NCBI GenBank assembly: GCA_938074605.1
Contig: CALJEI010000016.1
Location: 1-34,178, forward strand
Length of the DNA: 34,178 nt
Direction: 5' to 3'
Source of the DNA: an uncultured Ignisphaera sp.
GTDB lineage: Archaea; Thermoproteota; Thermoprotei_A; Sulfolobales; Ignisphaeraceae
Within the stretch, counting starts at the first letter, position 1, and every line of letters starts with the position of its first letter. Of this stretch, positions 4,336 to 34,178 are shown one piece after another. The translations under genes and the position numbers were made by a program. The notes below the pieces were generated by a model, which saw nothing but the letters and a program-made list of their open reading frames with translations, made no database searches and was not told the DNA's origin.

Positions 4336-5541
4336 TTAAACTTTTGGTGTTCTACTTTTTACACACTCTATAATTTCATTTATTGAAGCATTTGTTGCTA
4401 TACCATCGCTATACGTATAGCTTTTAGCTGCTATAAACCCTTTTTGTATAAGACAATCTACAACACTTTGAATTGATGGTACATTTGTTTTAATGGCTTT
4501 TGCAATATGTGTAAGTCTAGTTGATAATGTGTTTAGTGTTGATGTTCTATAGATATTCTCTAGTAGTTTTCTTGAGTTTTCCCTTAGCCAATACATTTCA
4601 TTGGCGGTTTTTAAAAGCTTCTCAAGATATTCTCTATTTGCTGTAGGACATATCCATATTGGGTATATAGGCTCAAGCTTTTCCCCACATACTGGGCAGT
4701 GTATAGCTTTTTCTACCACACCATCAATTTGATGCATATAGCTATAACTACACTTAGTACAGCTCCATAAAGCCCCTAGACAGTTGTTAAGAATTTCACT
4801 AGCCTTCATACCCCCTCTATATACTCTAACATAAACCCTTACATAATGGCTCATAGCGTAAGATAGTAGTGGCTCAATATATCTATCGTATATAGCGGCT
4901 ACTTTTGCTACAAATGATAGTAGAACCCTTATTGCAACATCTCTAGATTGTAGCACTTTAGTGCCGGCTACACCATATCTTCTAAAAAGCTTAACCCTAT
5001 ACCTACCCCCAAGAACAGCTAAATCTGTTGCAGTTAGTGCAACAATACCATATCTCTTAACACTATCTATAGCTGTGTGTATAAAGGGTGCAGGACTGCC
5101 AAAGGGGTCTACATCTATATAGCCTAAAGCTATACCCTCCCTCTTTGCGAGTCTATATATAAGCTCATTAGCATCAGCATGCACTATAGTGATATACTCC
5201 TCTAAATTATTTAGCTTTACATTATGCTCCATAATTTTAATAGCAGCTAAAGATAAATCACTCATATATATAGCTACCCCCTTGGGGAGGTTAGCTTCAA
5301 GAGCTATCCTTATACCTCTTACACCTGTAGCTGCAAGTGGGTCTACTATAGCTGCATCTCCACTATCTGTTTTTAGAAGCGCTACACAGATATCTCTATT
5401 TTCAACCATCCTAGGGTTGTAGAATACAGGTGCCCATGATGGTTCGTAGACACCATCATCCCTTTTGTATAGATTTGGGTTTGGGATACATATTTTTGCA
5501 AGTCCTTCAACAGCTAGTATATATCCATTGGGGCAACTCAT
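4336..5541 (-). CDS. trm1: tRNA (guanine26-N2)-dimethyltransferase Trm1
   Basis: It methylates G26 of tRNAs twice, using S-adenosylmethionine. Seen: 401 residues, usual for the archaeal family. The SAM-binding motif DPLAATGVRGIR is at 67-78, the acidic motif at about 95, and the catalytic DVDPFGSP at 143-150. C261, C264, C282 and C285 form two CxxC pairs in the C-terminal part, the expected zinc site. A start at ATG 5541 gives the conserved N-terminal region directly. A gap of about 270 bases separates it from TFE-beta downstream, and the THEP1 gene ends and starts its own unit 21 bases upstream. Nothing odd was seen. Confidence 0.95.
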   Translation of the reverse strand: MSCPNGYILAVEGLAKICIPNPNLYKRDDGVYEPSWAPVFYNPRMVENRDICVALLKTDSGDAAIVDPLAATGVRGIRIALEANLPKGVAIYMSDLSLAAIKIMEHNVKLNNLEEYITIVHADANELIYRLAKREGIALGYIDVDPFGSPAPFIHTAIDSVKRYGIVALTATDLAVLGGRYRVKLFRRYGVAGTKVLQSRDVAIRVLLSFVAKVAAIYDRYIEPLLSYAMSHYVRVYVRVYRGGMKASEILNNCLGALWSCTKCSYSYMHQIDGVVEKAIHCPVCGEKLEPIYPIWICPTANREYLEKLLKTANEMYWLRENSRKLLENIYRTSTLNTLSTRLTHIAKAIKTNVPSIQSVVDCLIQKGFIAAKSYTYSDGIATNASINEIIECVKSRTPKV

Positions 5542-5562
5542 CTTCAGTCAATTAACAGTAGA

Positions 5563-6126
5563 TTAGCTCTGTATAAATTTCTTAATAATCTCCATATGTA
5601 TATACCCTCTATTCTCTTCAGTAATACTTATTATCTCAAACCCCTTCCGCCTAAGTATACCAGTAATTTCAGTATCACCTAAACTTCTATGAACTACAAT
5701 AATACATTTTGTAGTAGTTTCTAGAGCTTTTATAATCTCTAGGCGTAGTCTATCTATAGATAGCTCCATTGGGCCAACTTCATCTATTCCTAAAATAGAC
5801 TTTTCTCCAAAGCCCCTCGATAAAGCTGCTACACCTATTCTCTCAGCTTCACTTTCTATAACAACATATCTCCCTATCCTCCTACCGCTAACCCTATAGC
5901 CCATTTGCCTAGCCCTTAGAATTTCTAGAGCAAGCCAGCCAGACTCACCACTCATAATATCAATTATTTTAAACCCTATCCTCCTCCCACGCTCTCTAAC
6001 CTCAGGACAGTAAAAGCCATATACATTAAAGCCTAGTGAATTTAGCTTATTAACAACCCTCATAAAAACTGTACTCTTACCTACACCCGGTCTACCTGTT
6101 AAAGCAATTAAAGCTATTTTATCCAC
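5563..6126 (-). CDS. THEP1-type nucleoside-triphosphatase
   Basis: Small P-loop enzyme of the THEP1/NTPCR family, which hydrolyses nucleoside triphosphates; its cellular role is unknown. Seen: 187 residues with Walker A GRPGVGKS at 11-18 and the family motif RRIGFKIIDIMSGESGWLA at about 48-66. Walker B ILGIDEVGPMEL follows at about 111-122. The start is GTG at 6126, which follows the TAG stop of the upstream gene with no gap; GAGG inside the end of that gene serves as ribosome binding site. The two genes are therefore almost certainly one transcript. Family call firm; substrate unknown. Confidence 0.92.
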   Translation of the reverse strand: MDKIALIALTGRPGVGKSTVFMRVVNKLNSLGFNVYGFYCPEVRERGRRIGFKIIDIMSGESGWLALEILRARQMGYRVSGRRIGRYVVIESEAERIGVAALSRGFGEKSILGIDEVGPMELSIDRLRLEIIKALETTTKCIIVVHRSLGDTEITGILRRKGFEIISITEENRGYIHMEIIKKFIQS

Positions 6127-7146
6127 CTATTTCCTCAACGATTTTGCAACCTCTTTTACAAAGTCCTCTACATTAGATAGTACTCTAACCTCACCAACAT
6201 CCTCAGCAACATCTATACTATCCCTACTCTGCACATCATCTATAATAGATATCGCTAGCCCATTAAATGTAGTTGCAAAAGACTTATTGTCTCTACACTT
6301 TAGCTTTATTGAGGAGCTGCTATATCTACCATTTATATATGTTATAAACATCCTCACATTGTTATGCTGTAAAAGTATATCTGTGGGTATTGTTGTAAAC
6401 ACCTCTACATCTACCCCAAGGTCTAAGAGCTTAAGGGCTAGTTTATACCTTTTATCACTAGGCTTTATCTCTCTATACTTCTCCTTACCATGCATTTTAA
6501 GCTCTGACTTAACTATTCTATCCCTAAATATATTGATATCCCTTACAACATCTTCAAACAGCTCGCCAAATAGCTCCATAAATCTATACGCCTTCTCAAC
6601 AGACATATCCATTTTATCCTCTTCATACTTTTGAAGAGCTTTTGAAGATATTCCAATAATATTTGCTAGTTCGTGGAGGCTATACCCCATTTTTATCCTA
6701 AGTCTCTGTAGCTTTTTTCCATCTATTTTCACATAGTACATACCGCTATACTCATATATGTATATCTTTCCACCTCTTGCAACATTGTCTAGTGTTTCTC
6801 TAGAGATTACACCAACCCTATCTCTAATGTATAGAACGTCTTCTAGAGTTTCTTCACTATTAAATCTATTTGCAATAAGTAGGGCATTTACATTTAGTGC
6901 TCTACTCAACTTTTTTAACTCTTGAAATACTCTATCTTTACTTGAGATTACCCTCTCTATCTTTAGAAGAATCTTGTCCCTATTATGCATAGCTATATAG
7001 TCAACACTTTTCTTCTCCCCTACTGGAAAGGACATTTTATGTAGAATTTTTATGTTGGAGCCCAATAGAGGGTGTAGTGTAGAGTCTCTTTCATCCACAT
7101 ACTCTTCACTAGTATTATCTACACCCTCCATCTCTATATGGGGCAT
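6127..7146 (-). CDS. Archaeal HTH-type transcriptional regulator (Cro/C1-type HTH)
   Basis: Seen: 339 residues. Residues about 40-125 resemble a nuclease-fold-like or sensor domain of mixed alpha/beta (SVDYIAMHNRDKILLKI onward). Residues 146-193 form a clear Cro/C1 helix-turn-helix (MGYSLHELANIIGISSKALQ, then KYEEDKMDMSVEKAY). The C-terminal 120 residues are mixed alpha/beta and end in a basic tail. This matches the single-copy archaeal family annotated as putative HTH-type transcriptional regulatory protein. Its targets are unknown. A TATA-like element sits about 30 bases before the ATG, implying a very short leader. It is the first gene of an apparent pair with the THEP1 NTPase. Confidence 0.85.
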   Translation of the reverse strand: MPHIEMEGVDNTSEEYVDERDSTLHPLLGSNIKILHKMSFPVGEKKSVDYIAMHNRDKILLKIERVISSKDRVFQELKKLSRALNVNALLIANRFNSEETLEDVLYIRDRVGVISRETLDNVARGGKIYIYEYSGMYYVKIDGKKLQRLRIKMGYSLHELANIIGISSKALQKYEEDKMDMSVEKAYRFMELFGELFEDVVRDINIFRDRIVKSELKMHGKEKYREIKPSDKRYKLALKLLDLGVDVEVFTTIPTDILLQHNNVRMFITYINGRYSSSSIKLKCRDNKSFATTFNGLAISIIDDVQSRDSIDVAEDVGEVRVLSNVEDFVKEVAKSLRK

Positions 7147-7173
7147 TTGCTATACCCATTCAATATTATTATG

Positions 7174-7183
7174 GTTTTAAAGG
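7174..7183 (-). promoter_or_regulatory. TATA box for the HTH regulator-THEP1 pair
   Basis: On the minus strand CCTTTAAAACC lies about 30 bases before the ATG at 7146, so the transcript would begin only a few bases before the start codon. Called from sequence resemblance. Confidence 0.5.
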
Positions 7184-7233
7184 TTCAAAAACCTTATTGC
7201 TGGGACTGTATTTTAATTAAATAAATTAAAAAT

Positions 7234-7944
7234 CTACTTTCTACGATATATGGCATAGACCATTGCATGATCTCTATCGAATGGCTCTAGGTGAACTACA
7301 TCAGCTATTTCAAATCCTCTTGCCTGTAGCACATTCATTTCATGCTTATATACCTCACTAGGCTCTGCTGTAACATCTATGCTTCTAGCTTTTATTGCTA
7401 GTAGAAGCCAGCCTCCATCCCTAAGAAACATATCGGCATTATCTGCTACAATAGAAGCTTGTTCAGGTTGAGCAACATCTGCATATAGTCCATCTACTTC
7501 TTCAACAACGAATCTATATCTCCTAGGCATTCTTGCATCCTCTAGAATAGGCACTATATTCCTTCTATCATCTGCAACAACTATAAGCTCCCTCATAACC
7601 CTTGGGGCAAACTCAACAGCATATATTCTCCCCATAAGCCCTACTATATCAGATATATGACTTACAGTTGTACCTGAACCTGCCCCTAGATAGAGGATTC
7701 TCTGAGCTTCTTTTATAGGTAGCTCCCTTAAGCCTTTAACTAAAGCTGCTGCTAACTTACTTCTATATGCATTCCACTCCCTATACTCTACATCTCCAAC
7801 CCTAAATAGATGTTCTCCATAAACCTTTTTACCAGGTGTTAAATTTCTTGTTGCTAATTTTGTACTACCATCCTCTAATTCTACAACATATACCCCCCTA
7901 TACCTCCCATGCTCATAAACTCTAGCTAAAGATGTGTATGACAC
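7234..7944 (-). CDS. flpA: Fibrillarin-like rRNA/tRNA 2'-O-methyltransferase
   Basis: Catalytic subunit of the C/D box guide complex; it methylates ribose 2'-OH groups in rRNA and tRNA. Seen: 236 residues, typical. The SAM-binding motif [12 protein letters not shown] starts at about 85, [13 protein letters not shown] follows, and [12 protein letters not shown] and the conserved C-terminal [13 protein letters not shown] are present. The start is GTG at 7944, with GAGGTG about 10 bases upstream. It lies directly downstream of nop5 (gap of 68 bases), the usual archaeal operon of the two partner proteins. Confidence 0.96.
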
Positions 7945-8012
7945 TATCTATACACCTCTTACATCCTATACTTTAAATGGAATATAAATGTGTATAGCGT
8001 CATTAGTAGACA

Positions 8013-9245
8013 CTACTGCTTCTTCTCCCTCCTACCCTCTCTGCGGGGTGGTTTCGTCTCCCTTACCTCCTTCTTTGGTGGTGGCTTTGGATAAAGCTGC
8101 TTAACCTCCTCAATTCTCTCCATAAGCTTAGTCCTAAGCTCATCGCCAACATATCTACCCGTAAAGAAGTCTATTCTAGCAGCTATTGATAGCTTTGTGG
8201 CTAGCGCCCTTGATATTTTGCCCCTCTGCCATCTAGGTGCTTTTCTAATCTCTGAAAACTGGAAAATAACACCATGTTTTGGAGGTCTACCACCAGTTCT
8301 TAAAGCTCTAAATAAAGCTTTTTCAGCACCCAACACCTGTACTGTACTTGCAGGAAGTTTTGCAAGCTCCTCAAGACTACCTGCAAGACTTAAAAGCCTT
8401 GCCCCTAGTAGGGGGCCTACTAAAGCTGTTATGTTTGGTGCTACCTCCTTCATAACATGTGATATATAGTCTGTTAGTTTTTCTCTAAGCTCATAGAGTT
8501 CTAGCCATATATTTGCAACTGTTTGAATTATAGACATATCCATTTCAGAGAGATCAGCCCCTATACTCTTTCTAGCAGTCTCATAGATTCTCTTAGCCCT
8601 ACCCTCTGAAAGACCTAGCTTCAATAGGGTGTCTACATCCATAGACTCTCTAAACCCTATACCTGCAACAATCTTAACATATTCATCGTGCTCCTTAGAT
8701 AGATCGTCAAGCTCTGGAAAGTGTACACTATACCACTCTCTAAGTCTAGTTGCAAGTAGATTTAGAGTTTTATCAATATCGTCTATAGCTCTAATTGCCT
8801 GTACAGCCAGTAGATCTCTCTTTTGGGCATATCTTCTAAGCTTTCTTCTTGTAAGCTCTAGAGATACACTATGTACATACTCTAGAAACTCCTGCTCATC
8901 ATTAAATAGCCCAAGCTTTATAGCTAGCTCTGGTAATTCTCTACGCAATCTATATACAGGACTGCTCGCTACAACAACATCTGTTAAAAACCCCTTTTGA
9001 GCAATCTCTCTAGCTATATCAGGATCCTCAAAAACGAGTATCGACTTCCCCACATCAATTTTTGTTTTTAGAGCCTCTATCAACTGTAGTAGTGAAGGGC
9101 TTGCCCTTCCCTCAGCAAGGGGTAGAAGCTCCTCTACAATCCTACCTAAATCCTTTGGATACAGCACCTTCTCAACTATCTCCCCAGCCTCATTTAGAGC
9201 AAATATGCCTAAAGCTGTATCAGCTATAAATATCTTATTGCTCAT
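8013..9245 (-). CDS. C/D box RNP scaffold protein Nop5 (Nop56/58 homologue)
   Basis: It bridges fibrillarin to L7Ae and guide RNA in the C/D ribonucleoprotein. Seen: about 410 residues. The N-terminal domain (about 1-120) is fibrillarin-binding, and a long helical coiled-coil region lies around 130-260. The Nop domain (about 260-375) contains ALVGPLLGARLLSLAGSLEE, then STVQVLGAEKALFRAL, then RTGGRPPKHGVIFQ. A lysine/arginine-rich tail ends the protein. GTG (9248) and ATG (9245) are adjacent starts; AGGTG upstream favours the ATG. It is transcribed divergently from S30e. Confidence 0.96.
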   Translation of the reverse strand: MSNKIFIADTALGIFALNEAGEIVEKVLYPKDLGRIVEELLPLAEGRASPSLLQLIEALKTKIDVGKSILVFEDPDIAREIAQKGFLTDVVVASSPVYRLRRELPELAIKLGLFNDEQEFLEYVHSVSLELTRRKLRRYAQKRDLLAVQAIRAIDDIDKTLNLLATRLREWYSVHFPELDDLSKEHDEYVKIVAGIGFRESMDVDTLLKLGLSEGRAKRIYETARKSIGADLSEMDMSIIQTVANIWLELYELREKLTDYISHVMKEVAPNITALVGPLLGARLLSLAGSLEELAKLPASTVQVLGAEKALFRALRTGGRPPKHGVIFQFSEIRKAPRWQRGKISRALATKLSIAARIDFFTGRYVGDELRTKLMERIEEVKQLYPKPPPKKEVRETKPPRREGRREKKQ

Positions 9246-14785: not shown

Positions 14786-14892
14786 TGGTAGCGGGGGGTG
14801 GAGTTCCACAGACAGCCATAGTGGCTATCTGTTTTGAACCACCGACCTCGGGGTTATGAGCCCCGCGGGCTACCAGGCTGCCCTACCCCGCT
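14786..14892 (-). tRNA. Initiator tRNA-Met (CAU) with a T-loop intron, CCA encoded
   Basis: The RNA can be folded by eye: acceptor stem AGCGGGG with CCCCGCT, a D arm closed by GGGC/GCCC, and anticodon stem CGGGG/CCCCG with loop CTCATAA (anticodon CAT). A five-base variable loop AGGTC and T stem GGTGG/CCACC follow. The A1-U72 first pair and the run of three G-C pairs above the anticodon loop are initiator features. The T-loop is interrupted after TTCAAA by 30 bases. Removing them gives the standard loop TTCAAAT and a 77-base tRNA including ACCA, which is encoded. The Leu tRNA in this window does not encode CCA. Confidence 0.93.
14803..14832 (-). other. tRNA intron at position 59/60, canonical bulge-helix-bulge
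   Basis: The 30-base insertion and its flanks fold as a full archaeal splicing site. The outer helix is the T stem GGTGG/CCACC. The central 4-bp helix is TTCA paired with TGGA (one G-U pair). The two 3-base bulges are AAA and ACT, and the inner helix is CAGATAGCC/GGCTGTCTG with loop ACTAT. Cutting AA|A and AC|T restores an ordinary T-loop. Crenarchaeal splicing endonuclease is known to remove non-canonical introns of this kind. Excision itself is inferred. Confidence 0.88.
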
Positions 14893-18976: not shown

Positions 18977-19124
18977 CATTAACTTTCATTGCTTCCCTCC
19001 TCTTGTCATGGGAGGGCTTTCGGGGTGAATAGATGAAGACCCCCATATCTCTCTGCTTTTTCAGGAGATTCTTTACAGCAACCACATCTCTGTCTTCCTC
19101 AATCCCACAAACCAAATACTTCAT
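18924..19124 (-). pseudogene. TnpB (IS605/IS607 family) C-terminal remnant
   Basis: A 66-codon minus-strand frame carries CGIEEDRDVVAVKNLL, the signature of the TnpB C-terminal zinc and RuvC III region (EDRDVVAVKNL). RDMG and a REAMKVNAR tail follow, as in crenarchaeal TnpBs. The first CxxC pair is damaged (KYLVC). No other part of a full TnpB of about 400 residues lies upstream in this strand, so it is a truncated, inactive relic. The frame past REAMKVNAR (below about 18972) runs antisense into the CYTH gene and is probably chance. Orientation is opposite to the TnpA and TnpB N-terminal relics to the right, so it derives from another insertion or from a rearrangement. Confidence 0.75.
18942..18981. 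repeat. 9-bp inverted repeat spanning the CYTH stop codon
   Basis: TAATGCTAG (18942-18950) and CTAGCATTA (18973-18981) are perfect complements with a 22-base loop. The CYTH stop lies in the right arm. It sits at the predicted right end of the TnpB remnant, where IS605/IS607-type elements often carry structured ends. It could equally be a 3'-end hairpin of the CYTH gene. Confidence 0.4.
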
Positions 19125-19182
19125 TAACCTATGCCTCTACAGCAATTTCTAAATAGATAGATTTAAATATATAGTGTAATAG

Positions 19183-19346
19183 GTGTTGGAGGTGGCAGAA
19201 AAGCTATTGACGATAGGAGAAGCAGCGAGGAGGCTTCAGATATCTAGAAGGACTGTAGAGAGGTGGGTTGCGAGGGAATGATTAGGGCTATTAAGTATCT
19301 GAGTGGTAGGTTTAAAGTCCCTGAAAGCAAGGTTGAAAGGATATAG
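19183..19346 (+). pseudogene. IS607-type TnpA remnant: MerR-like HTH only, frameshifted
   Basis: From a GTG/TTG region at 19183 the frame reads LLTIGEAARRLQISRRTVER WVARE then stops at 19279. The next frame resumes at 19278 with MIRAIKYLSGRFKVPES KVERI and stops at 19346. Together these give the complete MerR-like DNA-binding domain of an IS607 serine recombinase with one frameshift. The catalytic recombinase domain (about 130 residues) is missing entirely, and the TnpB start follows almost at once. A TATA-like ATTTAAATATATA precedes it (about 19161-19173). Confidence 0.78.
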
Positions 19347-19348
19347 AA

Positions 19349-19507
19349 GTCGTTAAAAGCTACAAGATCCCAATAGAAGCTCCAAAGGATTTGATCGAAG
19401 AATATTTTTGTAGTTAAGCAAAAAACCTGGAGATTATTCTTTCCCATGTTAAGATTTCAAAGAAAGGATTTTGTATTCACAACTCCTATAAGCAAAATCT
19501 TGAGTAG
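19349..19507 (+). pseudogene. TnpB N-terminal remnant, two frameshifts
   Basis: Three short reading stretches in different frames join into a TnpB-like N-terminus: VVKSYKIPIEAPKDLIEEYF (19349-19408), VKQKT, then LEIILSHVKISKKGF (from 19427). The last runs to a TAG at 19505-19507. YKIP-EAP-DL-EEYF and ILSHVK-SKKG are, from memory, common in crenarchaeal TnpBs. It is in the same orientation as, and directly after, the TnpA relic, as in an IS607 element. No catalytic residues remain. Confidence 0.6.
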
Positions 19508-20125
19508 TGCTAGAGGGTGGTTTTTAACAATACTTCTACACCATCTAGATATATTAGCAAATTGTTTTGAGTTTCGTAAGAGTTTGTATGGGTTGATGTC
19601 ATCAGATATGAAACTTAGTTCTTTGGTTGTTTTTATAAGGTTTACTATTCTTTGTAAATCTATTGTTTTGGGCTATTCTAGGAGGATTGAAATTGTTAAG
19701 GTTGTGAAGATGAAGAAATAAATTAAACGCCTACCATTGATAGAATTGAGGGGTTTTATTGTTAGAGTAACTGTGAGTTAAGCATAAGGGTATGTGGGGA
19801 AGAGAGAAATACGTCTCAATACAGTAAACCTATTCACCAAATACTCAAGAAAATACTTAAGATATGTGGGTTTAGATACCCCTAAACACCCTCAAGCACA
19901 ATGAAAACAGGGGGATGTAGAGGAAATGAGTGATAATGTTGCTCAAATATAAACTAGCATGAAAGTTAAATCCCTATATATTACTATCCACAAAATATAG
20001 AGCTAATTTATTTCATTAGCATTAAACAATAAATACAATTGAGTTATATAGTTGAAGTAATGACATGGATACTATTCTACTGTTTCATATGCCGCTTTTA
20101 ATTTAGTGATATAGTTTACTATGTT
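19508..20125. other. Decayed region after the IS607 relic
   Basis: About 620 bases without a gene I accept. A 91-codon plus-strand frame at 19446-19721 overlaps the TnpB relic and shows no recognisable domain. A stretch in one frame at about 19788-19904 (GYVGKREIRLNTVNLFTKYS onward, ending in DTPKHPQAQ) reads like degraded coding sequence but I cannot name it. The whole interval looks like eroded mobile-element DNA. Confidence 0.4.
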
Positions 20126-20467
20126 TTATGCTACTAGTGCTGAGGACATCAACATCTCACTGTCTATTGTTCCTGCAGGTAGCTGAAGTTCCCTTCCTCT
20201 ATTCTTTAGCTTAATTATCTTTAGCACATACTCCTTTATTTCATTAGCTGTAGGGGCATAGCCTGAAAATGCATTAAAGCCGCCTATTATTATTAGTGGT
20301 AGTGACTTTATTGATGAATTTAGTGGGTCAAGCCACATGTTAACAGGTATTATAACAAGTTTAACTCCATACTCCTTTACAAGTATTTCAGATGCCTTCC
20401 TAAGATTTTCTAGAGCGCTATTGCTAGTTTCATCAAGACCAACAAATACTATGGCTTCTAACAACAT
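20126..20467 (-). CDS. Hypothetical protein, possibly thioredoxin-like fold
   Basis: Not recognised with certainty. Seen: 113 residues, no signal peptide or membrane helix and no CxxC. The pattern (EAIVFVGLD at the start, VKLVIIPVNMW in the middle, LPLIIIGGFNAFSGYAPT then a C-terminal helix EIKEYVLKII) resembles the beta-alpha order of thioredoxin-like proteins. The active-site cysteines are missing. It is divergent from the 86-residue gene at 20545 with a 77-base spacer, suggesting shared regulation or simply a divergent promoter. Confidence 0.6.
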   Translation of the reverse strand: MLLEAIVFVGLDETSNSALENLRKASEILVKEYGVKLVIIPVNMWLDPLNSSIKSLPLIIIGGFNAFSGYAPTANEIKEYVLKIIKLKNRGRELQLPAGTIDSEMLMSSALVA

Positions 20468-20544
20468 TATAAACCACCTAGATTAACTATATACTGGAGA
20501 TATAGTTAAGATATGAACCACATTAATGAAGAGAGTGTAGAGAT

Positions 20545-20805
20545 ATGTGGTATCAATATAGAAAAAGCCCCCTAGGAACAGTTATACGTGAAATAATGAA
20601 AGTAATATTAGGGGTCTATAGTAGAGAAGAGGCAGAGAAAAAGCTAGAACTACTACAAGGTAGAATATCAGCTAAAATAAAGATAGTTGATATTAAGCAG
20701 AATATATATGAGCTTCTCACAATAGATCCAGATCTAAGTGACATCATATGGAGAAACTTAGATAGGGTAGCACTAGTAGCAAGCTGGGATTCAGTAGATG
20801 GGTGA
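20545..20805 (+). CDS. Small hypothetical protein
   Basis: Not recognised. Seen: 86 residues, helical and charged (SREEAEKKLELLQGRIS), with WYQYRKSPLG at the start and IIWRNLDRVALVASWDSV at the end. No membrane segment or cysteine. ATG at 20545; GAGAGTG upstream may act as ribosome binding site. Composition and codon use match neighbouring real genes, so I treat it as coding, but it could be specific to this lineage. Confidence 0.55.
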   Translation: MWYQYRKSPLGTVIREIMKVILGVYSREEAEKKLELLQGRISAKIKIVDIKQNIYELLTIDPDLSDIIWRNLDRVALVASWDSVDG

Positions 20806-20867
20806 AGAACCTAAATCCTATAGTCTATAGCAATCTCCCATCCCACTAGATTTTAGGCTCTAAGTAG

Positions 20868-20880
20868 TTTAAATATTAAA
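20868..20880 (+). promoter_or_regulatory. TATA box for tRNA-Leu
   Basis: GTTTAAATATTAA lies 33-45 bases before the first base of the tRNA, the usual distance for archaeal tRNA promoters. Confidence 0.55.
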
Positions 20881-20912
20881 TAGTATAGTTAGGCTAATAC
20901 ATGTAGTGGTGT

Positions 20913-20997
20913 GCGGGGGTGCCCGAGCTAGGTCAAAGGGGTCGGGCTCAGGACCCGATGGCGTAGGCCTGCGTGGGTTCAAATCCCACCCCCCGCA
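20913..20997 (+). tRNA. tRNA-Leu (CAG)
   Basis: 85 bases. Acceptor stem GCGGGGG/CCCCCGC, D stem CCC/GGG, and anticodon stem TCGGG/CCCGA with loop CTCAGGA (anticodon CAG). A long class II variable arm and T stem GTGGG/CCCAC with loop TTCAAAT complete it; the discriminator base is A. No intron. CCA is not encoded (CTA follows). Confidence 0.95.
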
Positions 20998-27128: not shown

Positions 27129-28784
27129 CTACTCCTCTCTAAAGAGAGGTATGGCTCCTATAAACTCCACACCAATAGTGATATCAGAATCATTTCTAGG
27201 TCCTGTGCCGTATGGATCTTGAAAGGCTATAGCCACCCAGTATCTACTTGATGATGGAATTGGTACATATATTGATTGTGTTAATTTTACGAAATAGTTA
27301 TCTCTTTCAAAGTCAGTTATACGTGTTTTGTGATAGTTACATATCTCTTGATATCTATACTCTCTAACAATATATTCGCTACCATCTTCACCTATTAGTA
27401 GGATTCTTAACACCCAATCAGTTCTATCTATATCCTCAAGCTGATTTTCATCTGGATAAGAATTATCGTGGAAGAAGATGTTTACATATAGTGTTATACC
27501 AGCAAATTTCTTTCCATCTATAGAGCCATCTGATGAACCTAGGGATCTTCCAACTTGGAGAAGCTTTAAAATTAATGGAGCTGTACTCCAATCACTTAGG
27601 TCATCATTTCTATATCTGTCATTGATGCTAGAACTACTTCCATAGTATGCATCTTCAGTTATAAAAACTATATCATTAATGCCATTTCCATCAACATCAC
27701 CTATAAATAGATATGGGTAATAACTTGTTTCACCAGTTGGCGACTCCCCCGAGGCCATTCTCATAAATTTAGCCAAGTAGCCTGCAGTACCATTTAGATA
27801 TATTCTAAGATTGAGGTCTGAATCCGTCGTTCCATAGTACCACGAACCTATAGCTGGTAGTGATACACCGCTACATTGATTAGGTATTGATGAGCTACAG
27901 GCAATAATATTATTTCCACGCTTTATTTGGATTACACCACTAAAGTTATTTATAAGAATTCTAAACCCATTTCCAGACAACGTGTATGTCCTTCTATTGA
28001 TAGTTATCCTCTCCGTCCCTGTGAATGCAGGCCCGCTAATCAATATTGTAAATCTTGGTGGTGTATCGCTACTTTGATTAATAGTTTTTTCCATAATCCA
28101 GCTTGGGTCATAGCCAATAGCTACAACACCAAATGCCAAACCTCTATCATCTGTTGAAACTATAGCATTATAGAACTCACTTTCCTGTCCAGGTGGTAAT
28201 AAAATTAGTTTTTCAGATTTAATTCCTCTATAGCCTATATTTGCACGATCTTTTGTATAAGGCTTTGCTATAAGCTTTAAATCTACGTCAAATTCTGTTT
28301 GAAGCTCTTCTGGATTATTAATCGAGAATGTTATAGGTATGATATGAGTTGCATTAGCTCTCAACGGATAGATCTTTTTGATAGGAGTCTGGGGATATAT
28401 TACAGCACCATCTAATGTTACAACAGCTATATATTCATAGCCTGGATCACAGGCAATAGCAGTATAGACGGGTATAAGGCTTGAGCTACATAGCTCAAAA
28501 CTCTTTTTGGCTTCTATACGATTCGCCTGATCTATAACAATTATCTGGTCTATAACAATATCGCTTGGCCCTAGATTGAACATGTAAACCATGTCTATAG
28601 TTCTATTCATTATAAGCTGTGATACTTCGTGTAGCTGTGAGTATCTAACAATATTTCTAAAGTGTAGAGAACCGCTATATATTGATGTAGCTAAATTAAT
28701 TAATATATATGTGAATATCGATAGAATTGTTATAGATATTATAAATGATATTAAGAGTGTCGATATTCCTCTAACTACTGGCAC
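27129..28784 (-). CDS. Large pilin-like surface protein A with DxDxNG motif
   Basis: Not in a named family I recognise. Seen: 551 residues. Residues 1-6 (MPVVRG) are a short class III leader with a probable prepilin-peptidase cut after Gly6. A hydrophobic helix covers about 7-34. The rest is beta-rich and extracellular in character, with several Asn-x-Ser/Thr sequons and a few cysteines. Residues 362-374 (GDVDGNGINDIVF) match FG-GAP/dockerin-like calcium-binding loops. A C-terminal domain (about 355-551) ends with YWVAIAFQDPYGTGPRND, then GVEFIG. That domain recurs in the next two genes. The GTG start shares a base with the stop of the upstream gene, after GGTGGT. Last gene of the run. Inference: minor or tip subunit of a filament. 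Confidence 0.68.
   Translation of the reverse strand: MPVVRGISTLLISFIISITILSIFTYILINLATSIYSGSLHFRNIVRYSQLHEVSQLIMNRTIDMVYMFNLGPSDIVIDQIIVIDQANRIEAKKSFELCSSSLIPVYTAIACDPGYEYIAVVTLDGAVIYPQTPIKKIYPLRANATHIIPITFSINNPEELQTEFDVDLKLIAKPYTKDRANIGYRGIKSEKLILLPPGQESEFYNAIVSTDDRGLAFGVVAIGYDPSWIMEKTINQSSDTPPRFTILISGPAFTGTERITINRRTYTLSGNGFRILINNFSGVIQIKRGNNIIACSSSIPNQCSGVSLPAIGSWYYGTTDSDLNLRIYLNGTAGYLAKFMRMASGESPTGETSYYPYLFIGDVDGNGINDIVFITEDAYYGSSSSINDRYRNDDLSDWSTAPLILKLLQVGRSLGSSDGSIDGKKFAGITLYVNIFFHDNSYPDENQLEDIDRTDWVLRILLIGEDGSEYIVREYRYQEICNYHKTRITDFERDNYFVKLTQSIYVPIPSSSRYWVAIAFQDPYGTGPRNDSDITIGVEFIGAIPLFREE
27134..27149. repeat. Short inverted repeat at the end of surface protein A
   Basis: CCTCTCT and AGAGAGG (7 bp) flank AA inside the last codons of the gene. 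A hairpin with a 2-base loop would be strained, so the role is doubtful. Confidence 0.25.
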
Positions 28785-30268
28785 TACCTACCACCTAGCA
28801 CTATTCCTATATACTCTAAACCTATTATTAAATCTGCATCATTTCTATTAAGATTTCCACTCGCATCAAGATAGTATGGATCTAAAATTTCTATAGCCAC
28901 ATAATACGTCCTACCCGTATTTGGGATATACATTATAAAATCTTTAGTTATATATGATACAGAAAACGGTTTTACATGTCTATACCTGCAGAGTTCATAG
29001 TAGCTTAGATATGTGCTGTAGACAAATGATTTAGTTGTATCGTCATAGAGACCAACTCTCATAATAACCCTATTATCATTATCACTAATATCGTCTTCTG
29101 AATTATCCCAGAAGAACATTCTTATAGTAAGTATGGCTGTTGAATATTTACTGCTATCAATACCATTCTCTGAAAACACTATCCTCATAGGTACAACATT
29201 TGCATCAAGTAGATCAACAGATGATATTATATCGTTTTTAGAAGTTTTGCTGCCTATTGAAAAATCCTGGGTAACAAAAACCATCTCTGTATTACCATTA
29301 TTGTTCAAATCGCCAATAAATATATAGGGGTCTAGCCCCACAATTCCTTCTCTTCGTGATGTAGTATTTGTGTAGAGTAGAACTTTATCTGCTTGACCAT
29401 CAAGTTCAACTCTACACGTCCTTCCATTATCTATATAACAAGGATATATCCCAGGCTGTGGCTGAATACCGCTAATTGTGATAATGCCAGTGAAATTCTC
29501 TATCTTTAACCTATATCGATGTAGCCCAACCCTACTAATATCTATGCTTTCTCCTGCTACATTTATGCTTGATTCCTCTGTACCCCTTCCTATTATCATT
29601 ATATTTAATTTATTGTTTACCGGATTGTTACCTATAATGATTAGCGAAGCAGTTAATTCGGCGTTAACCTCCCCAGATACATTTCTATATAGCGTTAATT
29701 CTGTAGATGTCTTTATGGCTCCATCCACCACTAGCAATCTATTCTCTAAATATTTGAGCAACTCTGATGTAGTGGTAATATTCATGCCTCCAAAAAGTGT
29801 TATCATAGGAATCCAATTAACTCTTTCTACTATACTAGCATAGAGTTGTGGATCTATAGAGAAAACCCTTCCACTTTCAGTAATAACAGCTATGGGTATG
29901 TAGCCAACTCTACACGTAATAGCTATGATGTCCCCTGGTAGCACGATTCTTGATGGCGATGTATTGCATAGGGTATTTCGTCTAGCATCTATAACAATTT
30001 TATCCATATCCATATCTATAGCAACTATATAGGATACATATGTTGTTACGGATCCTATGTTCTTTACATTGAGGGAGGTTTCAATAGGGTATAGGATAAG
30101 CTTTTCACCAAAGTATCCACTAGAAATTGATGTAATTGGCTGTGAATACATTATAGTGGAGTATATATTTGTTATAGTGAATATTATGGCTAAAGAGATT
30201 ATAGCAAATGCAATTATTACTCCAACAACTTCAGCAATACCCCTCTCTATAAACTTTTTATAGTGCAT
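28784..30268 (-). CDS. Large pilin-like surface protein B with degenerate DxNxNG motif
   Basis: Seen: 494 residues. The leader MHYKKFIERG ends in Arg-Gly before IAEVVGVIIAFAIISLAIIF, a class III signal with Glu at mature position 3 as in type IV pilins. The middle is beta-rich with Asn-x-Thr/Ser sites. Residues 319-331 (GDLNNNGNTEMVF) align with the calcium-like loop of protein A but have Asn for Asp. The C-terminal region (FFWDNSEDD, then YYVAIEILDPYY, NRNDADLIIGLEYIG) is homologous to that of protein A. ATG at 30268 has GGTGGGG just upstream. The stop overlaps the start of A by 1 base. Confidence 0.68.
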   Translation of the reverse strand: MHYKKFIERGIAEVVGVIIAFAIISLAIIFTITNIYSTIMYSQPITSISSGYFGEKLILYPIETSLNVKNIGSVTTYVSYIVAIDMDMDKIVIDARRNTLCNTSPSRIVLPGDIIAITCRVGYIPIAVITESGRVFSIDPQLYASIVERVNWIPMITLFGGMNITTTSELLKYLENRLLVVDGAIKTSTELTLYRNVSGEVNAELTASLIIIGNNPVNNKLNIMIIGRGTEESSINVAGESIDISRVGLHRYRLKIENFTGIITISGIQPQPGIYPCYIDNGRTCRVELDGQADKVLLYTNTTSRREGIVGLDPYIFIGDLNNNGNTEMVFVTQDFSIGSKTSKNDIISSVDLLDANVVPMRIVFSENGIDSSKYSTAILTIRMFFWDNSEDDISDNDNRVIMRVGLYDDTTKSFVYSTYLSYYELCRYRHVKPFSVSYITKDFIMYIPNTGRTYYVAIEILDPYYLDASGNLNRNDADLIIGLEYIGIVLGGR

Positions 30269-30277
30269 AGCCCCACC

Positions 30278-31888
30278 CTATCTAAATGGTATTATAGCTA
30301 GAGACTCTATGTATAATGTAAAATCAAGGTCATCTAAATTACCATTATAGTGGTACGGGTCTTGAAATGCTATAAAGACGTAGAATAGCTTTTCACTAAT
30401 ATTTCTTGGTGGAAGAGGTATGAAAATTAGGCTACTTTGAGCTTGTGCTGTTGGCGGATAGGTATCTTCATATCTTGTTAATTCCCTAAATGTATAACTT
30501 CTATAGCTATATATAGTGCCACCTTCATCTACAAGACCTACAAACATTATTGGCCTATCGATAGATGTCCCCTGGGCATCACTACCCTCATTATCATGAA
30601 ATCTATAGTTGATAGCAATAACAACACTACTATAGTTATTATTAGATATAGCAAAGCCTCTATACACTAGTGCAAGGGGTGCTACTGAATAGTCAAGTAG
30701 TTGATTATCATTTTCATTTCTACTGTTGTAGAAACCCCATGTTCTATCTATTGCAGTGTATAGTATTCCAGCATAGCCTTGACTTCCATCTGTATTCATG
30801 AATATAGTATATGGGTTGTAGCTTGATTCATCACCAGTTCCACGACAATATATTTCAACTCTATCGGCAGAGCCTAGTAACATAAGTTGTGTAGTGATAG
30901 AGGAAGTTGTAAGAAATGTGTATTTCGCTACATCAGGATCTGGTTTAGTAATCCAATTTATAGTTGAACCTTGTCGTAATCTTATAATCCCTTGTGCATA
31001 CAGGCTTTCAAAGCCATATATTTTCACTTTGCTAGCAGTTGAGCACCCTTGAGTAGATGAACCAAGGGTCATACTGATTCTATCTGCTGTTATAATTATG
31101 TTGTATCTAGATTTATTTCTTGGATCATAGCCTATCCAAAGTGAGCGAATTGCTTGATCATTTATATTTACATTTATATTGTTTTCAACTCTATTCAACC
31201 TCCATATATATGATGTAGTTGTTCCTCCCTTCATACCTTTGTCTATAGCTAGTCTTGGGTATGGCAATACTTTTGTTGGATTGTCCATTCTATCCAATGT
31301 CTCTATTGTAAATCCCTTTTGTTCTAACAAGGATATGCTCCAAATATTATCTGTTATTCCTACGCTTATTGGTATAACCCTTGTAGCATAGGGCACTACT
31401 ATAGGTATTGATATATTGCTGGTATAGGGTATGTTGCTAAGTTCTTCAATTGTTATAACTGTGCTGCTTATAACCGCCCCCTCTACTGTTATTATGTACA
31501 ATGTCTTTACTTCTAGATTTTCACATAGACTTTCAGATATCTTTAGATCTAGTGAAGTTCGCTGACCTGATACCAATTTAGCGACTCTATCCATATTTAG
31601 ATAGTGGTTCTGATTATTACAGCTAATATACACTACAACTTTCTCAACTTCTATATCAGATCCACCTATATTGACTACTTCCAGTATTGAATTTGATGCA
31701 TTGAAGAATGCTATAATTTCTCTACTTGTGACCTTCATTGTAAGTTCAGCAGCTCTATACATGGGATTTTCATATATGGGTGTTTTCGCTAGTGAACTGT
31801 GGTATATATTTAGTATTAGGGGTATTATTGCTAGTAGAAGTATCGAAAAGAATATAGTTGCTATAATTATGTTTCCCTGCCCCCTCAT
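30278..31888 (-). CDS. Large pilin-like surface protein C
   Basis: Seen: 536 residues. The leader is MRG, then QGNIIIATIFFSILLLAIIP, a class III signal with a minimal leader. The beta-rich middle includes WIGYDPRNKS, which aligns with AIGYDPSW of protein A. The calcium-like loop is degenerate (FMNTDGSQGYAG at 363-374). The C-terminal domain is retained: YRFHDNEGSDAQ, FYVFIAFQDPYHYNGNLDD, DFTLYIES. ATG at 31888 overlaps the stop of the upstream gene (ATGA), so the genes are translationally coupled. Function inferred only from the company it keeps. Confidence 0.67.
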   Translation of the reverse strand: MRGQGNIIIATIFFSILLLAIIPLILNIYHSSLAKTPIYENPMYRAAELTMKVTSREIIAFFNASNSILEVVNIGGSDIEVEKVVVYISCNNQNHYLNMDRVAKLVSGQRTSLDLKISESLCENLEVKTLYIITVEGAVISSTVITIEELSNIPYTSNISIPIVVPYATRVIPISVGITDNIWSISLLEQKGFTIETLDRMDNPTKVLPYPRLAIDKGMKGGTTTSYIWRLNRVENNINVNINDQAIRSLWIGYDPRNKSRYNIIITADRISMTLGSSTQGCSTASKVKIYGFESLYAQGIIRLRQGSTINWITKPDPDVAKYTFLTTSSITTQLMLLGSADRVEIYCRGTGDESSYNPYTIFMNTDGSQGYAGILYTAIDRTWGFYNSRNENDNQLLDYSVAPLALVYRGFAISNNNYSSVVIAINYRFHDNEGSDAQGTSIDRPIMFVGLVDEGGTIYSYRSYTFRELTRYEDTYPPTAQAQSSLIFIPLPPRNISEKLFYVFIAFQDPYHYNGNLDDLDFTLYIESLAIIPFR

Positions 31889-32535
31889 CTTAGCGATACC
31901 TCATAGACGCCAACTATATAGGGTTTACCGCTATAGAATGTAGCTATAAATATCCTTGCTTTTAATGCTTCTGAAGGAAGCCGTATTTTAACAATGTTAT
32001 TCTCACTACATAGGCCAGATGCTTGGGAATATCTACATATATTCTCTATACTACATATATAAATTGTATCACTAATAGTGTAGCCTACCGTTCTTGCATA
32101 CTGTAGAAAGCTACGTATAACGCCCTCCCACGGAATATATACTCCATCCATAGAGCCTACATATATGGATGTAGATCTTATACAGTCTGTGGGAGAATTA
32201 CAGAGAATACCATCATCATCGTTATGAGGATTGTAGACGTAGATTGCATTACAGCTTATATAGTTAATACCACTATCAATAGCTACAAAGAAGTTGTTCT
32301 GCGAACCATCAACTCTCTTGAGGAGTATCCACAGTGTAGAGCTTTTATCATCAAATGAAATTGTGTTTACAAGTATGCTAGAAGCCTCATTAGTTAAATG
32401 ATTTGAGAGAAGAATATTATCTCTGTATCCAGAAATGACGAAGGCTACATAGCTAAGCATGGATATACCAATAAGTAAAGCAAATCCTATGTATATAATT
32501 GTAGACAATAGCTCGCTCTGACCCCTTTTAACCAC
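31885..32535 (-). CDS. Pilin-like surface protein D
   Basis: Seen: 216 residues. MVKRG then QSELLSTIIYIGFALLIGIS is a textbook class III signal: basic leader ending Arg-Gly, Glu at mature position 3, long hydrophobic helix. The head is beta-rich with seven cysteines. ILLKRVDGSQNNFFVAIDSG then INYISC aligns with the corresponding part of protein E upstream, and the C-terminal GKPYIVGVYEV aligns with NKPYLIDTHEY of E. Start is GTG at 32535, with GAGGGG about 11 bases before. It follows a T-run after gene E. Confidence 0.68.
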   Translation of the reverse strand: MVKRGQSELLSTIIYIGFALLIGISMLSYVAFVISGYRDNILLSNHLTNEASSILVNTISFDDKSSTLWILLKRVDGSQNNFFVAIDSGINYISCNAIYVYNPHNDDDGILCNSPTDCIRSTSIYVGSMDGVYIPWEGVIRSFLQYARTVGYTISDTIYICSIENICRYSQASGLCSENNIVKIRLPSEALKARIFIATFYSGKPYIVGVYEVSLR

Positions 32536-32574
32536 AACTTATCTACCCCTCTAGAAAAACTTGCTAAACTAGAT

Positions 32575-32581
32575 AAAAAAG
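32575..32581 (-). terminator. T-run after surface protein E
   Basis: On the minus strand a run of six T bases follows the stop of gene E by about 10 bases. Plain T-runs are typical archaeal terminators. It could separate E from D-A, or only reduce read-through. Confidence 0.35.
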
Positions 32582-32591
32582 TTTCACAATG

Positions 32592-33725
32592 TTAAGAAGT
32601 ATAGCTAGAGCTAAATCTATATTCATGTGTATCAATCAAATAGGGTTTATTATTGATTATAGCAACAATATATAGCCTTAGTTTAGCTAAAAAAGCTTGA
32701 GCTAAAGACCCACCTTGAACGATATATATAGTGTTAGCTACACCCTCTGAATATAGAGTATCTTGACTTAACTGTATAGCTAGCCCCTTCACGCTATCTA
32801 CACTCCATCCAACCACCCTTATATAGCTGCTATCATTATCATCTTCAATATTAAGCTGAGGCTGACCTTGGTACACCAATTTTATGTAGCCTGGCGGATT
32901 TGGTAGAATCTCTATGGATAGTGAGGAGCTTATAATGTCTATAGCTACATCGCCTATGATACTAACATGTACATTTTTAGCCAATAGAGCATCATCTATA
33001 TATATAGCTTTAGCAAAAACATTCAACTCCTCTATTTGTTTCATCTGATTTAGTTTTACCACACCCTCCCTACTATCTACATCTATTCTTATACTTTGCC
33101 CCACTCTAAGCGGATACATTGTGTCATTGACATATAGATAGGAGTTTATGTCAACATCAATAACTCTAAATCTTAGTGAGCCATATAGTCTCCACAGACG
33201 ATTATAGGACCTCAATACAGTATAGCTATATCCACGTACAACCGGCTTTATGAGAGCTAGAGTTACCATAGAATTTTGATCAACCTCTACAGCACAGATT
33301 TTCACCACTCCACTATCTGGCAACCCTCTTGCTTTCACATAATATCTATAGCTATAGACACCATCTCTAGAAACCACCACTATATCGTTAACACTATATT
33401 CACCCACCGATACCACAGCCCCACTACTTACGTCTTCAACTACATCCATACAATCTATATACTCAGCCCCATTATCTAGAAAAAACATCACCCTACCTCC
33501 ACCATCAAACCTTCTAAAAAGAAATACAGCAAACTCCTCTGTAGCATGAACAAGCCTTACAACAACGCCCATCTTCTCAGACTCTATAACCCTCTGAAGA
33601 ACAGCTAAATCCTGCTTCACACCATAGTCACTCTGCATATATACAATAAATGCAATTGAAAAACTTATAGCAAGACCTATTAAAACCACTATAGCAACAG
33701 TCTCAGATAGGCCCCTATACACCAT
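32592..33725 (-). CDS. Pilin-like surface protein E
   Basis: Seen: 377 residues from ATG at 33725. MVYRG then LSETVAIVVLIGLAISFSIA is a class III signal with Glu at mature position 3. The frame is open to a TTG at 33800, but GGAGTGGTG directly upstream of the ATG, and the short leader it gives, decide for 33725. The head shares FLFRRFDGGGRVMFFLDNGA and EYIDC with protein D, and the C-terminal NKPYLIDTHEYRF with D's end. Otherwise a long beta-rich region, unrecognised. It sits between two T-rich stretches and may be a separate unit. Confidence 0.66.
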   Translation of the reverse strand: MVYRGLSETVAIVVLIGLAISFSIAFIVYMQSDYGVKQDLAVLQRVIESEKMGVVVRLVHATEEFAVFLFRRFDGGGRVMFFLDNGAEYIDCMDVVEDVSSGAVVSVGEYSVNDIVVVSRDGVYSYRYYVKARGLPDSGVVKICAVEVDQNSMVTLALIKPVVRGYSYTVLRSYNRLWRLYGSLRFRVIDVDINSYLYVNDTMYPLRVGQSIRIDVDSREGVVKLNQMKQIEELNVFAKAIYIDDALLAKNVHVSIIGDVAIDIISSSLSIEILPNPPGYIKLVYQGQPQLNIEDDNDSSYIRVVGWSVDSVKGLAIQLSQDTLYSEGVANTIYIVQGGSLAQAFLAKLRLYIVAIINNKPYLIDTHEYRFSSSYTS

Positions 33726-33797
33726 ATACACCACTCCATAGAATAGCTGTACCACTAACAAACTCCACCATCCATCCCTAGATACTCTATCGACTAA

Positions 33798-33828
33798 CAA
33801 AAATAAAAAATATTTTGAAAAAATAAAT
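33798..33828 (-). terminator. T-rich terminator after the truncated pilin gene
   Basis: The minus strand reads TTTATTTTTTCAAAATATTT and then TTTTATTTTTG within 50 bases of the stop codon, with two runs of six Ts and one of five. This is a good archaeal intrinsic terminator and suggests that the upstream pilin-like gene is highly expressed on its own transcript. Confidence 0.55.
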
Positions 33829-33845
33829 TAACTTAATCATTATAT

Positions 33846-34178
33846 TTAAGGCTTAGCCTCTGTAACGGCTGAAATAACATTACCAGCCTTAGTATATATT
33901 TTAATAGTATACTTAGCACCAGCAATAACAGTAACATCTTGTAGGTTTAATTCATATTCTTCTTCTTTACCAGGTGAAAGTGTGAGTTCCTCTTCTAATG
34001 GATATACTCCTACTCCTGCTATCTCGATTTTGTATATGACTGCAGCTGCTGAACCTTCGTTCTTTATGTGGAGAACTAGTTTAGGTGGAGAAGTGCTAGC
34101 GCTGATGTAGCTGTCTGGGTATACCTTTATACTCTCTGTTCCTCCTAGTGTTGCCCACCAGCCCATTATCCATCCTAT
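33846..34178 (-). CDS. Small pilin-like protein, N-terminus beyond window
   Basis: Seen: the last 110 residues of a frame that continues upstream past the window edge. The visible N-terminal residues IGWIMGWWATLGG look like the end of a hydrophobic helix. The head is a compact beta-domain (KLVLHIKNEGSAAAVIYKIE, then VYPLEEELTLSPGKEEEYEL) typical of archaeal pilins or archaellins. No cysteine. The ATG at 34166 is inside the helix and is not the true start. Inference: the major subunit of the filament whose minor subunits follow. Confidence 0.6.
   Translation of the reverse strand: MGWIMGWWATLGGTESIKVYPDSYISASTSPPKLVLHIKNEGSAAAVIYKIEIAGVGVYPLEEELTLSPGKEEEYELNLQDVTVIAGAKYTIKIYTKAGNVISAVTEAKP

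Follow-up and report, generated by a model that had tools for sequence, protein, structure and literature searches.

The window analysed here, the entire contig C16 (34,178 bp) of a 17-contig, 1.63 Mb genome of an uncultured Ignisphaera sp., carries at its right end six pilin-class genes on the minus strand, in the order F (cut), E, D, C, B, A (Table 1). The products of A to E probably form the minor-pilin complex of one crenarchaeal type IV pilus, a complex built from modular pilins; its location at the pilus tip is mildly favoured. The original prediction, made from the same DNA without database searches, had described a surface pilin cluster with large minor or tip subunits. The present analysis supports that reading, with the tip as the presumed place of the large subunits.

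Class III signals, pilin modules and a shared head

Start codons and sequences of the five complete genes were checked. As originally described, each leader ends in Arg-Gly and is followed directly by a hydrophobic helix, and Ser/Ala-Glu occupies mature positions +2/+3 in three of the genes (B, D and E). A simple class III scan was positive for all five and for none of the other 21 window genes. When applied to the loci fetched from related genomes, the same scan was positive for 99 of 121 members of these pilin families and for 20 of 424 background open reading frames (ORFs), a background rate that includes other pilins. The alternative that the leaders are lipoprotein or Sec signals was also tested; they are class III leaders. 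A PibD-type peptidase, which would cleave them, is encoded at C2:192090-192416, where a Peptidase_A24 match was found (E 1.2e-5; 25.9 bits, or 28.5 with in-frame neighbours; cut-off 26.5). The pibD gene that the original prediction had proposed to look for just outside the window is thus present in the genome, at a site away from the cluster.

Alignments of polypeptide A to B (E 7e-26) and to C (E 2e-17) cover most of their length, and D and E are weakly related to each other (1e-6). The first ~130 positions of the A/B/C profile (residues 7-131) matched 8fk7, a type IV pilus pilin from Pyrobaculum calidifontis (E 1.2e-4), and this N-terminal part alone recovered small pilins across the phylum sample. 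The AlphaFold2 model of A (mean predicted local distance difference test score, pLDDT, 83) consists of a helix (residues 3-52), a pilin-type beta domain (57-123) and strands continuing to residue 548, and that of D (pLDDT 88.6) of a helix (2-53) and a beta domain; both models thus have the N-terminal helix plus beta domain of pilins. As judged from sequence, an ordinary archaeal pilin module forms the first part of A, B and C alike and is extended by a large beta-rich region that ends in a shared head of ~215 residues.

The head is characterized by the pattern PY..IGDxDGNGxxEhhFxTED ... FHDN ... DPY ... ND.D.T. It reached the cut-off of no Pfam or NCBIfam family, and no solved protein in the PDB matched it by sequence. 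On these grounds a known adhesin or enzyme head was ruled out, including the soluble enzymes that would have spoken against the original prediction. An FG-GAP/integrin-type beta-propeller was rejected as well, because the match scored 15.6 bits against a gathering cut-off of 26.9, was confined to one stretch and showed no repeated blades. Residues D363 and D365 of the A head motif are invariant among 14 orthologues, and the DxDxNG stretch resembles a calcium loop, so the head may bind calcium. In Foldseek searches with A (PDB and BFVD) very large proteins had the best E-values, but at TM-scores of 0.03-0.2 these were meaningless. The short matches of high probability were to Eph ligand-binding, CBM4-type cellulose-binding and phage tail proteins (TMt at most 0.47), which suggests that the model holds a jelly-roll-like beta-sandwich somewhere, and identifies neither fold nor ligand. 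The matches of D were mostly immunoglobulin-like sandwiches and were used no further than for the description helix plus beta domain. No homology was detected between D and the head.

Conserved gene order and linkage to PilB and PilC

Most of the relatives were draft genomes, and their ORFs were called by a simple script. The full-length A2 profile detected 203 of 398 genomes, mostly through the generic pilin N-terminus; for this reason the head alone was used for counts. It was found in 45 of the 214 genomes and 23 of the 78 genera of the order, and outside the order in only two genomes of the phylum sample of 398. At least 14 genomes have the order E-D-C-B-A or D-C-B-A. The longer form occurs in six other genomes: G118, G116, G117, G112 and, from another family, G091 and G087, the last with E inverted. 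In Ignisphaera sp. SKYB63 (G113, same genus), the closest named relative for the cluster genes (A identity 72%), the locus is cut before E. D-C-B-A without E was found in families f7 (G133, G134, G130, G135, G152, G154), f5 (G102) and f1 (G119), and in G109, a further member of the genus Ignisphaera, where a second D lies at the end of the block. E was seen in Ignisphaera and in two genomes of a neighbouring family. Elsewhere a single giant of 538-878 amino acids (aa) adjoins a D-like gene, oriented either like it or divergently, and at nearly every locus the giant stands beside such a gene. The genes are therefore kept together in relatives, not scattered.

A maximum-likelihood tree built from 72 heads plus middle regions placed A, B and C in separate clades (ultrafast bootstrap, UFBoot, 100 each), each spanning the families. 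This means that the triplication predates the family split or that the genes moved as a block. The A, B and C sequences of G091 each nest within Ignisphaera beside G118, with weak fork support for A and C, which suggests that the whole block was transferred horizontally. In G091 the block and the PilB/PilC genes are on different contigs. Retention of three paralogues together could also mean that A, B and C form the shaft itself, as a heteropolymeric thick filament. We regard this as highly improbable, since every subunit would carry a bulky region of ~400 residues, small UpsA-like pilins are already there, and one giant is enough in many relatives.

To locate an assembly machine, the whole genome was searched for T2SSE and T2SSF. 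The left end of contig C6 was found to encode, on the minus strand, an ATPase (PilB, 117.7 bits) and a platform protein (PilC, 73.9 bits). In dovetail orientation, the final 354 bp of the window are 91% identical to the first 348 bp of C6, indicating that both contigs stop within a repeated pilin gene. The pilB and pilC genes that the original prediction had proposed to look for outside the window thus lie just past the contig break, and the machine very probably adjoins the cluster there. The simplest join, which relies on the repeat, would give PilB-PilC-pilin-F-E-D-C-B-A on one strand. F and the C6 pilin resemble UpsA (NF046073) with 32.8 and 53.3 bits, respectively, below the equivalog cut-off of 130 bits.

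Physical linkage was also seen in relatives. At L067, L068, L072, L152 and L153 the giant shares a transcription unit with PilB and/or PilC, and at L051, L055, L056 and L063 it faces or adjoins them. L152 and L153 come from the two genomes outside the order, and here the head is inside a full pilus operon: pilin, PilC, a coiled-coil-like protein of 132-138 aa, a membrane protein and PilB, followed by a further gene, a small pilin-like gene, the giant and a large secreted-type protein. A PilC orthologue was present in 32 of the 45 genomes with the head and in 51 of the 169 without it (Fisher p 9e-7, uncorrected for kinship).

Two other interpretations were considered. One is that the five proteins form no filament but a surface complex resembling the Sulfolobus bindosome, in which anchors of pilin type would hold large binding heads at the cell surface for substrate capture. 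The class III signals of the large proteins, weak matches of a few alignment members to BasB and the lack of linkage between block and PilB/PilC in some genomes would be compatible with this. We nevertheless consider it unlikely: library scans of the cluster proteins revealed no solute- or sugar-binding domain, UpsA-like shaft-type pilins adjoin PilB/PilC and the block, and in two distant lineages the giant belongs to a complete pilus operon. Still less probable is a short pseudopilus or secretion piston, in which D, E and A to C would be pseudopilins pushing or releasing the heads or other proteins. Pilus and secretion machines have a common core. In addition, several minor pilins per operon recall the HIJK-type sets (PMC9934059). 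The cluster contains no candidate secreted enzyme, however, the heads are covalently part of pilins, and the small pilins resemble shaft pilins.

Some genomes have the PilB/PilC core and no head. Simple loss of the large pilin was rejected for eight of them (G115, G088, G089, G145, G146, G142, G151, G153), because they encode, at or near the core, a D-like gene followed by another large pilin of either 387-409 or 710-732 aa; in G115 the pair is on another contig. The 710-732 aa pilins contain a region remotely related to the head (hhalign 91.5%, E 8.5e-7), kinship of the 387-409 aa pilins with the head was undetectable by hhalign (1.4%), and both types contain a DxDxN-like motif. The pair is therefore constant and the head varies. 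G155, G037, G022 and G011, which also have the core, showed no pair of this kind near it.

The 710-732 aa pilins (L167, L168 and L173, from G145, G146 and G142) carry an extra C-terminal domain of ~200 residues past the head-like region (TVYLLALNNYAAQGIGGG...INLHG...).

Coordinates and neighbouring features

The coordinates and sizes originally given for A to D were correct, as was their tight packing: A and B share 1 base, C and D overlap by 4 bases, and B and C are separated by 9 bases. The size of E was refined. The ATG located 25 codons after the listed TTG is the likelier start, giving MVYRG/LSETVAIV. The sixth gene, F, is incomplete, as had been noted; it is cut by the contig end.

Table 1. 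Features of the pilin cluster (window, contig C16) and of the left end of contig C6. A slash marks the end of the leader.
Feature	Contig	Position	Strand	Remarks
A, modular large pilin, 551 aa	C16	27129..28784	-	Class III leader VPVVRG/ISTLL; pilin module ~7-131, beta-rich region, head (27132-27812)
Head of A	C16	27129..27812	-	Contains DVDGNGINDIVF, DxDxNGxxD calcium-loop-like motif
B, modular large pilin, 494 aa	C16	28784..30268	-	Leader MHYKKFIERG/IAEVV; paralogue of A
Head of B	C16	28784..29416	-	
C, modular large pilin, 536 aa	C16	30278..31888	-	Three-residue leader MRG/QGNII; paralogue of A and B
Head of C	C16	30278..30895	-	Calcium-loop-like motif degenerate: NTDGSQGYAG
D, small pilin, 216 aa	C16	31885..32535	-	Leader VVKRG/QSELL; nearly constant partner of large pilins
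E, D-related pilin, 377 aa	C16	32592..33725	-	Leader MVYRG/LSETV from ATG at 33725; 402 aa from TTG at 33800
F, small UpsA-like pilin	C16	33846..34178	-	5' end lost at contig end
Complete pilin, near-copy of F	C6	22-432		
PilC	C6	863-2695	-	
PilB	C6	2710-4317	-	
BigX, 1193-aa surface-type protein	C6 (L009)	4448-8029	opposite to PilB	C-terminal transmembrane stretch
Coiled-coil protein, 140 aa	C6 (L009)	8073-8495		

The interval between the C6 pilin and PilC (L009:433-862) encodes a pilin-like fragment (EIYKIEIHGIEEIILNPPKTVEPGQ) with stops in the frame read; L051 and L056 carry a second small pilin at this place. The fragment would be a pseudogene or an assembly error. In this pilus type PilB consistently has BigX (~1000-1240 aa, with a C-terminal membrane stretch) and the coiled-coil protein of 140 aa in its neighbourhood, also at L157, L158, L164 and L177, and the locus comprising coiled-coil protein, BigX, PilB, PilC and pilins is kept in G118, G109, G097, G098 and others. 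The library match of BigX, to CarboxypepD_reg, was below threshold. A role of BigX as S-layer anchor and of the coiled-coil protein as cytoplasmic accessory protein is possible.

Three more T2SSE-type ATPase loci were found in the genome (C5:48360, C1:232524 and C6:124604), two of them with T2SSF genes nearby, which indicates several related machines in this strain. By position, A to E were assigned to the ATPase at C6:3109.

Elsewhere in the window, a partial tRNA match (Rfam, 14820-14885, minus strand, 30.7 bits, model positions 8-63) was absent from the ARAGORN list and is perhaps an intron-bearing or degenerate tRNA. Nearly 2 kb (~18980-20900) directly ahead of the tRNA-Leu at 20913 contain no ORF longer than 113 aa.

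Proposed assembly and relation to known pili

From sequence evidence we propose the following model. After cleavage of the leaders by the PibD-type peptidase, PilB and PilC would polymerise the UpsA-like small pilins, F and its C6 neighbour, into the shaft. D and E would serve as accessory pilins, and A to C as pilin modules with a large grafted head. The cleaved pilin modules would pack together in one complex, in which D would invariably partner the large pilins. D, E and A to C would make up the first-assembled end of the fibre, as do minor pilins of Streptococcus sanguinis and Myxococcus (PMC9934059; PMC12075869), and the bulky heads would cap the fibre and might adhere to a surface, another cell or the S-layer. 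A tentative generalization is that these genes represent an archaeal class of tip complex, a two-part cassette that pairs one small pilin of D type with a large modular one and whose head family lies outside all libraries used. In Ignisphaera-type lineages the cassette would have grown to three heads along with D and E; in other genomes quite different heads would take their place on the same PilB/PilC core, so that tips could be exchanged between lineages.

Several observations weigh against a minor-pilin complex of this kind. The head of A is conserved more strongly than its other parts (mean pairwise identity among the 14 orthologues 0.57, compared with 0.35 for the helix, 0.26 for the pilin module and 0.39 for the middle), which is odd for an adhesin meeting varied targets and would also suit a purely structural cap; such conservation points to a constant ligand or to head-to-head contacts in a cap rather than to an arms race. 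The Foldseek matches of A to beta-sandwiches were weak and partial. The join of C16 and C6 depends on a repeat, and the two pilin copies may be tandem genes or strain variants. Finally, 13 head-positive genomes, some of them incomplete, lack a close PilC orthologue, and in G091, G116, G117, G130 and G133 the block is far from PilB/PilC.

Additional components of this kind have been mentioned before. Makarova, Koonin and Albers (2016; PMC4858521) described Desulfurococcales pilus loci with three to four additional components whose origin 'could not be traced' and proposed them to be a minor pilin set; they also described large Thermoproteales proteins as possible minor pilins or adhesins and regarded the diversity of hyperthermophile pili as a major enigma. 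Their loci of ATPase subclade 4A share with the present one a PilB/TadC-type core, PilA-type pilins and three to four extras. The difference is that here the extras are resolved into a D-type pilin and paralogous modular pilins with one common head. Genes of the A-E type are probably some of those untraceable components. The original suggestion that the cluster was perhaps not described was therefore right in part: the minor-pilin idea is known (PMC4858521), and what is new is sequence content for components that were probably among those mentioned previously. A literature search for Ignisphaera pili turned up no paper.

The tip formed by PilA, PilB and PilC of S. sanguinis (PMC9934059) is similar in that a bulky module is grafted onto the pilin module, a small pilin serves as partner and each set has several modular pilins, but its heads are lectin and vWA domains, whereas the Ignisphaera head is unnamed, triplicated and archaeal. 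In the Myxococcus Kil Tad pilus minor-pilin sets with exposed extra domains likewise functionalise the pilus end; these pilins are of the bacterial TadEFG type (PMC12075869), and the likeness to A to E is one of architecture. With the Sulfolobus Ups and Aap pili the system shares a PilB/PilC core and UpsA-like pilins, although F and its C6 copy score far under the UpsA cut-off. The head was not found in genomes of family f9, taken to be Sulfolobaceae. PilY1-type adhesins (DUF2341) have been suggested as components of archaeal clade 1 pili (PMC4858521). They too are large presumed-tip components with a calcium-loop-like motif, but PilY1 is not a pilin, and A to E had no DUF2341 match in the library scans.

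If the proposed model is correct, the unexplained pilus components of Desulfurococcales include a definable set of modular minor pilins whose head family can be traced, and experimenters would know which proteins to choose for labelling, gene deletion and structure determination. Archaea would then also resemble S. sanguinis and Myxococcus in varying the pilus end through domains grafted onto minor pilins.

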